NCBI RefSeq assembly: GCF_014695385.1
Contig: NZ_JACJOD010000041.1
Span: 1-64,000 of the forward strand
DNA from: Trichocoleus sp. FACHB-46
GTDB taxonomy: Bacteria; Cyanobacteriota; Cyanobacteriia; FACHB-46
Reading direction: 5' to 3'
Length of the DNA: 64,000 bases
In this document: piece after piece, positions 28,779 through 47,858 of the stretch
Layout of the letters: each line of letters begins with the position of its first letter
How positions within the stretch are numbered: position 1 is the first letter of the stretch
Notes under the pieces: generated by a model
Told to the model about the DNA's origin: nothing
Database searches by the model: none
The model's input: only the letters and a program-made list of their open reading frames with translations
Program-made: the position numbers and the translations under genes

Positions 28779-28816
28779 GAAAGAATAGAAAGACGCTAGC
28801 GTCTTTCTATTCTTTC
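28779..28816 (-). terminator. Perfect 38-bp palindrome after thrC
   Basis: The arms GAAAGAATAGAAAGACGCT (28779-28797) and its exact complement (28798-28816) join without a spacer. The last base overlaps the thrC stop codon. In the direction of transcription a pyrimidine-rich tract (CCTATCTCATCC, then TTTTTC) follows. It may be a terminator or a stability hairpin controlling expression of the carrier gene downstream. Confidence 0.7.
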
Positions 28817-41517: not shown

Positions 41518-43860
41518 ATGTTTAAGCCATTTCGAACCGCCGCCGTCCTGGGTGCAGGTGTAATGGGAAGCCAGATTGCTGCTCACCTCGCCAATATCGG
41601 TCTGACTGTGCATCTATTGGATCTGCCTGCCAAGACAGGGAATAAAAATGATTTGGTAGAAGGCGCGTTTAAGAAAGCCCGCAAGCTATCTCCACCGATC
41701 TTCTTTACGGATAAGGTGGCTCATCGCGTCATCCTGGGTAACTTTGAAGAACATTTTGATCGTCTAGCCAATGTAGATTGGGTCATTGAGGCTGTTGTTG
41801 AGAATCTAGACATCAAGCAACAACTGATGCAACGGCTGGAAGCGGTCATGCGGTCAGATGCTGTAATTTCTACTAATACCAGCGGATTGCCGATTCATGC
41901 GATCGCGGAAGGTCGAGCAGAATCCTTCCGCCAACGCTTTTTAGGCACCCATTTCTTCAATCCACCCCGCTATCTAAAATTGCTGGAAATCATCCCGACT
42001 CCGGAAACAGATCCGCAAGTAGTCGCACGCATGCGCTGGTTTGGAGAGACCCGCTTAGGCAAAGGTGTGGTGATTGCCAAAGACACACCCAACTTCATCG
42101 CCAACCGCATTGGCATGTATGCCACGATGCAAGGCTTACGAGCATGGACGGAGCAAGGATACACCATTGAGGAGGTCGATACTCTCACCGGGACTCTGGT
42201 AGGACGACCCAAATCAGCCACCTTTCGCACCGCTGACTTGGTGGGTTTAGATACCCTGATGTATGTGACAAAAAACCTTTATCCTGCCATTCCCCACGAT
42301 GAAAACCGCGAGATGTTCCGGGTGCCAGAAGTGCTGCACAAACTCGTCATGGCAGGGGCGATCGGAGCCAAAGGGGGACAAGGATTTTACAAGAAACAGA
42401 AGGGTGAAATTCTTTCAGTTAATCCCGAAACCATGAGCTACGAGCCTGCCAAGCCAATGGATTTGGGCGAGGTAGAGAAGTTGGGTAAGGTTTCAGGTTT
42501 GAGCGATCGCTTGCAAGCTCTGTACAAAGATCCTGGTCGTGCAGGGCAGTTCTTCCGCACCACCACACTGGACTTACTCGGATATAGCGTCCGTCGTATC
42601 CCTGAAATTGCTGATAGCCCTGCTGATATCGACCGAGCTATGTGCTGGGGGTTTGGCTGGGATGTTGGCCCCTTTGAGATTTGGGAGATGCTAGGCTTTG
42701 AAACCGTACTGGCAGATATGAAAGCAGCCAATATCTCGGTGCCCGAATGGGTAGAGGCCATGCAGAGTAGGGGCGAAGCATTCGGGCAATACTCTTTGCA
42801 ACCAACTACTAAGCCTACTTCCGAATGCTTCGCCCCTACAGTGGAGAAAATTGATTTAGAAGCTATTAAAACAGACCCACAAAAAACATTGTGGCAGAAT
42901 GCTGAAGCCGCTTTGCTGGATTTGGGTGATGGTGTAGCGCTGTATGAATTCCGCTCTAAAGGCAATACCCTCAGCTTCAAAGTAGTAGAAGGGTTAGCTG
43001 AGGTTCTAGATATCTTAGAAGAGCGGGACGACCTAAAAGGCATGGTGATTGGCAACGGTAGCGCTCATTTCTCTGGCGGTGCAAACCTCGCTGAAATGGG
43101 AATGACCGCCCAATCGGGCAACTTGCAAGCATTGGATGACCTGATTGTGGAGTTCCAGTCAGTTCTCCAGCGCATCCGCTATGCCCCCAAACCTGTAGTC
43201 ATTGCCCTGCAAGGGCGAGCCTTGGGAGGTGGTTGTGAGCTAGTGATGGCTTGTCCTCATGTCGTTGCTGCCGCTGAAACCTATATTGGCTTGGTAGAGG
43301 TAGGCGTGGGTCTAATTCCAGGGGCAGGCGGCATCATGAGGACTGTGGCACGAGTGGCAGAACGAGCCGCTAGCGACTCTCCCAGCGACATTCAACCGTT
43401 CCTCAAGGCCGCTTTTGAAACGATTGCGATGGCTAAGGTTTCTACCAGTGCCTACGAAGCCCAACAGATGGGATACCTCCCTTGTGATGCCCGCATTTTG
43501 ATCACTGGAGAGAATCGCCTAGAAGTGGCTAAAGCTGAGGTTATCCATCTCGATCGCGCTGGGTATGCACCACCGCCAGAACAAACCGCCATTATGGTCC
43601 TGGGCCGTCCCGCCAGAGCCATGCTAGAACATATCGCTTATGTTTTCCAACAAGGTGGTTTTGCTAGCGAATACGATCGCTACCTAGCAGGAAAGTTGGC
43701 TTATGTGATGACAGGGGGCGAACTCTCCGCTCCCGCTCTAGTGCATGAAGATTACCTGTTGCGTCTAGAACGGGAGAATTTCTTGCCGCTCCTCAGCCAA
43801 CCCAAAACCCAAGAGCGGATCACCCACATGTTGAAGACGAAGAAGCCACTGCGGAACTAA
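41518..43860 (+). CDS. fadN: FadN-type 3-hydroxyacyl-CoA dehydrogenase / enoyl-CoA hydratase
   Basis: A 780-residue bifunctional beta-oxidation enzyme. The dehydrogenase comes first: NAD motif GAGVMGSQIAAHLA near residue 13, catalytic histidine in GTHFFNPPRYLK, then C-terminal dehydrogenase domains to about 405. The hydratase follows (about 478-700) with HFSGGANLAEM and GRALGGGCELVMAC. This order is that of Bacillus FadN and opposite to E. coli FadB. The ATG at 41518 is preceded by GGGAGAG; the longer frame from 41419 overlaps fadD. Residues 417-441 are encoded by an inverted-repeat element inserted in frame. fadA begins 12 bp downstream with GGAG. Confidence 0.9.
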   Translation: MFKPFRTAAVLGAGVMGSQIAAHLANIGLTVHLLDLPAKTGNKNDLVEGAFKKARKLSPPIFFTDKVAHRVILGNFEEHFDRLANVDWVIEAVVENLDIKQQLMQRLEAVMRSDAVISTNTSGLPIHAIAEGRAESFRQRFLGTHFFNPPRYLKLLEIIPTPETDPQVVARMRWFGETRLGKGVVIAKDTPNFIANRIGMYATMQGLRAWTEQGYTIEEVDTLTGTLVGRPKSATFRTADLVGLDTLMYVTKNLYPAIPHDENREMFRVPEVLHKLVMAGAIGAKGGQGFYKKQKGEILSVNPETMSYEPAKPMDLGEVEKLGKVSGLSDRLQALYKDPGRAGQFFRTTTLDLLGYSVRRIPEIADSPADIDRAMCWGFGWDVGPFEIWEMLGFETVLADMKAANISVPEWVEAMQSRGEAFGQYSLQPTTKPTSECFAPTVEKIDLEAIKTDPQKTLWQNAEAALLDLGDGVALYEFRSKGNTLSFKVVEGLAEVLDILEERDDLKGMVIGNGSAHFSGGANLAEMGMTAQSGNLQALDDLIVEFQSVLQRIRYAPKPVVIALQGRALGGGCELVMACPHVVAAAETYIGLVEVGVGLIPGAGGIMRTVARVAERAASDSPSDIQPFLKAAFETIAMAKVSTSAYEAQQMGYLPCDARILITGENRLEVAKAEVIHLDRAGYAPPPEQTAIMVLGRPARAMLEHIAYVFQQGGFASEYDRYLAGKLAYVMTGGELSAPALVHEDYLLRLERENFLPLLSQPKTQERITHMLKTKKPLRN
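42767..42839 (+). mobile_element. MITE-like palindromic element inserted in fadN
   Basis: Perfect 19-bp terminal inverted repeats, GTAGGGGCGAAGCATTCGG (42767-42785) and its complement (42821-42839), bracket 35 bp. If TA is the target duplication (42768-42769 and 42837-42838), the insert is 69 bp or 23 codons without a stop, and removing it restores MQSTVE in frame. It lies in the linker between dehydrogenase and hydratase. No transposase is encoded; related elements are at 47680 and 47790. Confidence 0.75.
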
Positions 43861-47658: not shown

Positions 47659-47679
47659 TTCGCACTTTCTAAAAACTCG

Positions 47680-47747
47680 TAGGGACAAAGCATCCAGCCA
47701 GCAGTGTAAACCACCGACTGTAAACTCTGATCTGAATGCTTTGTCCA
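47680..47747. mobile_element. MITE-like inverted-repeat element downstream of fadE
   Basis: GGACAAAGCATCCAG (47683-47697) and CTGAATGCTTTGTCC (47732-47746) form 14-of-15 terminal inverted repeats around about 35 bp, beginning with GTAGGGA. It is the same architecture and size as the element in fadN, with drifted ends. Confidence 0.55.
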
Positions 47748-47789
47748 GTGCAAAGTTGAGCTAACTCAATAGTCTCGATCTGTCCTCAA

Positions 47790-47858
47790 GGACATAGCAT
47801 TTGGAATAACACTCAATTGTTTTCCCTTTTAATCACTGTCCAAATGCTACGCCCCTAC
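47790..47858. mobile_element. MITE-like inverted-repeat element upstream of fumarylacetoacetase
   Basis: GGACATAGCATTTGGA (47790-47805) and TCCAAATGCTACGCCCCTAC (47839-47858) share an 11-bp perfect inner inverted repeat (TAGCATTTGGA) with a decayed outer left end. The right end GCCCCTAC matches the fadN copy. It lies 20 bp before the fumarylacetoacetase start. Confidence 0.5.

Follow-up and report, generated by a model that had tools for sequence, protein, structure and literature searches.

The fadN-type gene of Trichocoleus sp. FACHB-46 (G000) contains, in frame, a palindrome-ended repeat whose central loop lies the other way round in the congeneric species G002. The reading that we favor, at a probability of roughly 0.8, is that this repeat consists of two GTAG-tagged REP units joined as an inverted dimer (REPIN-like, ~72 bp), and that it entered the linker of the enzyme in the ancestor of the genus, persisted there, and had its loop flipped in the lineage of G002.

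Inverted REP doublets mobilized with RAYTs are described as REPINs or BIMEs, with a divergent spacer between the two units as the typical layout (Bertels and Rainey 2011, PMC3116915). GTAG is a published tag of REP sequences (PMC3733652, PMC6006769). REPs with GTAG or CGTC tags are also found within genes, where more than half of them occur as dimers or groups coding 20–30 residues (Di Nocera 2013, PMC3733652). In-frame REP dimers are thus already on record (PMC3733652, PMC6006769), and the statement of the initial annotation that such in-frame exonization is uncommon has to be relaxed.

The window, i.e. the whole 64-kb stretch of DNA that was analyzed, belongs to a genome of 6.56 Mb in 92 contigs, and its assignment to the cyanobacteria is based on HIP1 motifs (GCGATCGC) together with the relatives identified. 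For all comparisons, including those with the congeners G001 and G002, one genome per species was available.

Results and Discussion

The palindrome and its host gene

The repeat occupies 73 bp (42767–42839) and consists of perfect 19-bp arms, GTAGGGGCGAAGCATTCGG and CCGAATGCTTCGCCCCTAC, flanking a 35-bp loop, just as first annotated (Table 1). The chance expectation for such a pair of 19-bp arms in 64 kb is ~2e-5, and the window holds only one other 19-bp inverted pair, a perfect 38-bp palindrome without a loop (GAAAGAATAGAAAGACGCT, 28779–28816). When the whole dimer is folded as single-stranded DNA, the energy is −24.8 kcal/mol (z −9.0); a copy of the dimer located in a RAYT gene of G002 folds with a z of −10.1. 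The fadN copy is the only one found in G000 with both arms perfect. Since this state equals the consensus of the family, retention appears to be a simpler account of the perfect arms than re-perfection by templated mutation, which is possible as well.

Table 1. Coordinates of the features discussed, in the window unless a contig of G000 is given
Feature	Position	Strand	Basis or remark
fadN-type gene, 3-hydroxyacyl-CoA dehydrogenase + enoyl-CoA hydratase, 780 aa, intact	41518..43857	+	Pfam 3HCDH_N, 3HCDH, ECH_1
Left REP arm GTAGGGGCGAAGCATTCGG, read (S)RGEAFG	42767..42785	+	sequence, arm alignment
Loop, 35 bp, read QYSLQPTTKPTSE, inverted in congener G002	42786..42820		loop comparison
Right REP arm, perfect complement of left arm, read ECFAPT	42821..42839	-	sequence, arm alignment
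Neighboring intergenic dimer, GTAGGGACAAAGC...GCTTTGTCCAGTG	47679..47750		absent at same place in G001 and G002
Second neighboring intergenic dimer, left arm decayed, ends GCTACGCCCCTAC	47786..47858		absent at same place in G001 and G002
Short 28-bp double-foot REPs	C6:817368, C13:332411, C24:155722, C31:341779, C32:140236		

The FadN frame runs uninterrupted across the palindrome, again in agreement with the initial annotation, and the protein is 91–92% identical to full-length orthologues in both congeners. The palindrome falls in the linker joining the dehydrogenase part to the hydratase domain. An AlphaFold2 model built from a 21-sequence alignment has a mean pLDDT of 86.8, and residues 429–442 are the sole stretch of the linker below 50, so that a disordered linker, and hence a tolerant site for the element, is plausible according to the model.

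Inversion of the loop in fadN

The loops of G000 and G001 are identical at 32/35 positions in direct orientation. Between G000 and G002, the direct comparison is at chance level (z 0.8), and the inverted one yields 25/35 identical positions with a z of 9.3; the inverted comparison of G001 with G002 gives a z of 7.9. Among 421 non-orthologous loop pairs, the highest z is 7.2, with 2.4% of the pairs reaching 4.7. When the G002 loop is re-inverted in silico, it reads GFGQYSLRLTTMPASES / HRQGEGFGQYSLRLTTMPASESAPT, compared to GQYSLQPTTKPTSE / QSRGEAFGQYSLQPTTKPTSECFAPT in G000, the actual peptide of G002 being HRQGEGFGGRHGSQSQGVLAESAPT. The comparison of sequences therefore leaves us in little doubt that the loop was inverted between its arms, in frame, in the G002 lineage, with the recoding of about eleven linker residues. 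Nucleotide comparison groups G001 with G002 as sister species and leaves G000 as the outgroup, and parsimony places the flip on the G002 branch. This inversion did not form part of the earlier reading of the locus.

An improbable alternative is that the G002 loop was overwritten, by conversion from or reinsertion of a family copy lying in the opposite direction, rather than inverted in place. Some non-orthologous loops are indeed alike, and a RAYT could put back an excised copy, but the re-inverted G002 loop fits its own fadN orthologues better than any of the non-orthologous pairs fit each other, and it restores the peptide. In addition, G001 and G002 have kept the same left/right differences at the outer ends of the element (GGCA on the left, GTAG on the right), which places the breakpoints, and thus the crossover, inside the arms.

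Inversion at other REP dimers

In-place inversion is not confined to fadN. Among the orthologous dimers of the genus, the loop is inverted at 4/9 scorable loci, namely fadN, C22 (z 7.6), L104/L115 (z 6.7), and C30 (z 5.8 and 4.7), and direct at C11_201, C7, the RAYT copy, C6_217, and C34. In an unrelated cyanobacterial genus (G014 and G059), whose dimers form a RAYT-linked family of their own with arms GTAGGGGCGAGGCATTCTCG, inversion is seen at three of the five scorable loci (L212/L239, z 6.3; L223/L238, z 10.7; L228/L241, z 4.7), and L216/L235 and L220/L233 are direct. The counts leave out C31, the loop homology of C30 between G001 and G002, and several G014/G059 pairs. Because non-orthologous loops are sometimes alike, flip calls with z below 6 (C30 at 4.7–5.8 and L228/L241 at 4.7) are not individually safe. 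The total of 7/14 inverted loci is the value that randomized orientation would give, in a small sample. From these comparisons, REP-dimer loops appear to flip often. A broader proposal, that they are invertible cassettes in near-random orientation between species, which in genes like fadN would act as reversible, frame-preserving recoders of a linker, is tentative and in our estimate somewhat less likely than not.

Flipping at about half of the scorable orthologous loci, together with coding frames that are open for both loop orientations in all three species, might also suggest a programmed phase switch, in which a dedicated recombinase maintains two forms of the FadN linker within one population. 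We regard this as quite improbable, in that intergenic dimers flip too, the fadN arms have decayed in G002, and the linker looks, in the model, disordered and tolerant.

Age and history of the insertion

The fadN element is common to all three species of the genus. It measures 73 bp with decayed arms in G001 and 70 bp with greater decay in G002; because both congeners have the same element in decayed form, sequence comparison dates the insertion before the split of the three species.

The initial annotation held that the element adds 23 codons and that its removal restores an uninterrupted MQSTVE, and neither statement withstands comparison with relatives. The interval from W411 to W459 comprises 47 residues in G000, equal within one codon to its length in G001 and G002, against 44–56 residues in full-length orthologues from outside the genus, with the exception of L036 (17 residues); a hypothetical 69-bp deletion would make the linker shorter than in every one of these orthologues except L036. 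No linker of the MQSTVE type, and hence no such ancestor, was found among the orthologues compared. The alignment of relatives that had been proposed as a check consequently bears out the presence of the element in the genus, decayed in both congeners, but not an extra length of linker relative to outgroups. Since most linkers from outside the genus are equally long, the dimer occupies an older linker, which it did not lengthen but probably replaced. The pre-insertion site was not recovered, because the outgroup linkers fail to align as DNA.

The unchanged length also accommodates a very unlikely history without any insertion, in which templated (quasi-palindrome) mutation created the palindrome within the old linker; a Gly encoded by the left arm coincides with a conserved Gly, and a templated change could account for three adjacent differences at the left end. 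Such an origin does not sit well with the fact that both arms are identical over 15 bases to those of a dispersed family whose dimers have the same length.

Identity and distribution of the repeat family

Insertion of a family member, as we prefer, agrees with what is seen elsewhere in these genomes. A genome-wide search with the arm, another of the proposed checks, returned 24 single-arm matches in G000, 17 in G001, and 31 in G002, compared to 3–6 for a reversed control pattern, and upheld the view that a dispersed palindrome-ended mobile family has contributed coding sequence to fadN. Many of the arms pair into dimers, typically of ~72 bp, in which the two arms are nearly identical and the loops for the most part unrelated between copies, and in the 30 dimers examined the arms are near consensus and the spacers divergent. 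In an alignment of 48 arms, the terminal tag is conserved at G (46/48), T (47/48), A (48/48), and G (44/48), and conservation begins sharply at the first G, with the bases outside GTAG unconserved. Since conservation includes the G just outside the TA and stops there, the TA is not a flanking duplication, as had initially been supposed. The family thus combines GTAG ends, inverted arms with a divergent spacer, and a single-stranded hairpin, which are the marks of GTAG REP dimers.

That a TA-targeting (IS630/Tc1-like) MITE instead inserted with TA duplication and stayed in frame, as the initial annotation had it, is most unlikely: TA does lie within the arms and the arithmetic of 69 bp or 23 codons does work out, but the end-conservation test, in which conservation extends one base past the TA, rejects this identity, the loops are unconserved, unlike the bodies expected of MITEs, the cognate transposase of a congener is a RAYT (HUH, Y1) that itself carries the repeat, and the MQSTVE-type linker occurs in no orthologue.

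The similar elements first noticed near 47680 and 47790 are the two intergenic dimers of Table 1, which sit between genes for an acyl-CoA dehydrogenase and a fumarylacetoacetase-like protein. One side of the first ends in CACTGG, without GTAG, a recurrent asymmetric subtype also seen in L095, L170, L174, and L175. Five loci were searched for empty sites suitable for target-site analysis, and their flanks are too divergent for exact junctions; at 47679 and 47858, it is suggestive that the congeners show GTAG/CTAC at the edges. G000 also has about five short double-foot REPs like GTAGGGGCGAACGGCCGTTCGCCCCTAC, which belong to a different family and for which no RAYT was detected; the same palindrome also occurs within RAYT genes of G017 and G087.

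The RAYT transposase

Both congeners have a copy of the dimer in frame within the ORF of a Y1/HUH transposase. The gene is intact in G002, where it carries the repeat as NTGRGEAFGQ...PNASPLQP and matches Pfam Y1_Tnp above the cut-off, with a score against NCBIfam REP_Tyr_transpos of 63 bits, below the 80-bit cut-off. In G001, an insertion of ~5.4 kb that seems to include other transposase genes separates the gene into two parts (C1:58879–59049 and 64512–64949). No RAYT was detected in G000 by Pfam and protein searches (E 1e-10), in an assembly whose 92 contigs and gaps could hide one, and the three Y1 genes of this genome are IS200-type TnpA without GTAG ends. A cognate RAYT in the same genome is usual, not universal, and orphan REP families have been published. 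By its sequence, the fadN element is accordingly assigned to a RAYT-linked repeat family that would be orphaned in G000. The initial impression that the family is active, or recently was, fits G002 better than G000, which has no detectable RAYT and a single perfect-armed copy, the one in fadN.

REPs inserted in the tnpAREP gene are a published feature of RAYT subclass 2.4, or group 4 (PMC6006769). The congener RAYT has the motifs NHLH and YIDNNP, compared to NH[IFV]H and YIxNNP as published (PMC6006769), and in 16 of 26 cyanobacterial RAYTs examined, a GTAG palindrome follows the HUH motif at the corresponding place, with cores that vary by genome. The fadN repeat family would hence belong to a subclass-2.4/group-4 RAYT, the putative cognate enzyme. 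In a RAYT ORF of another cyanobacterial family (L146, G010:C7, an open frame of 318 aa), a REP-coded peptide, GSVGEDQKSLPQMLRPLRPQESP, is repeated in tandem in frame.

Proposed mechanism

In the model that we propose, a GTAG REP dimer entered the FadN linker in the ancestor of the genus, presumably through GTAG-dependent insertion by a RAYT, and would have persisted in a predicted disordered linker with an open frame, a setting that we take to be tolerant. The arms would allow the loop between them to be reversed, leaving length and frame unchanged, most likely through strand switching from one arm to the other in a hairpin at the replication fork, whether or not the RAYT nicks the DNA. We infer this route, as we would any phase variation, and the flips in FadN are probably near neutral in selective terms. 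Paired changes in the arms number 5 versus 1.9 expected (p ~0.03, with one event counted twice), which is weakly compatible with arm-to-arm templating, or concerted evolution of the arms.

Relation to known systems

In-frame REP dimers in genes and REPs within RAYT genes are already known. Like intragenic REPs and the Rickettsia palindromic elements, the fadN repeat is an in-frame palindromic dimer of 20–30 codons in an otherwise intact protein; it differs from the intragenic REPs in its fadN target, its three-species history, and the recoding of its loop by inversion (PMC3733652). Unlike REPINs as described in the available part of the source, the fadN copy lies in coding sequence and its RAYT is undetected in G000, and inversion of the spacer between orthologues is not mentioned there (PMC3116915). 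Compared to the REPs of subclass 2.4 RAYTs (Quentin 2018, PMC6006769), we here find a metabolic host gene, a longer dimer, a loop of 34–35 bp, and inversion.

The closest analogue for strand switching is found in the minute inversions of plastids, in which hairpin loops of 4–50 bp are flipped between related species (Kelchner and Wendel 1996, in PMC12371153). The fadN loop is likewise a short hairpin loop flipped between relatives, but the 1996 cases are, in that account, non-coding and not REP elements, whereas the fadN case is in frame within a gene (PMC12371153).

The flipped segment, present in both orientations within one gene (G000 and G001 versus G002), invites comparison with a further class of inversions. 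Chanin, in 2024, reportedly described intragenic invertons, in which inversion between inverted repeats within a gene alters the encoded protein; the fadN inversion differs in being known between species only, from sequence.

What appears to be new, within the open-licence literature searched and allowing that an earlier report may exist, is the inversion of REP-dimer spacers between close relatives, in one case in frame in a metabolic enzyme. The comparisons, made in two unrelated genera, point to spacers turned end for end at about half of the orthologous loci that could be scored, and in the fadN case the enzyme is left unbroken. If general, such inversion would help to explain how REPIN arms remain identical when the spacers look unrelated, and it would offer a directly testable system both for inversion mediated by hairpins and for the ways in which linkers of bacterial proteins may gain new sequence.
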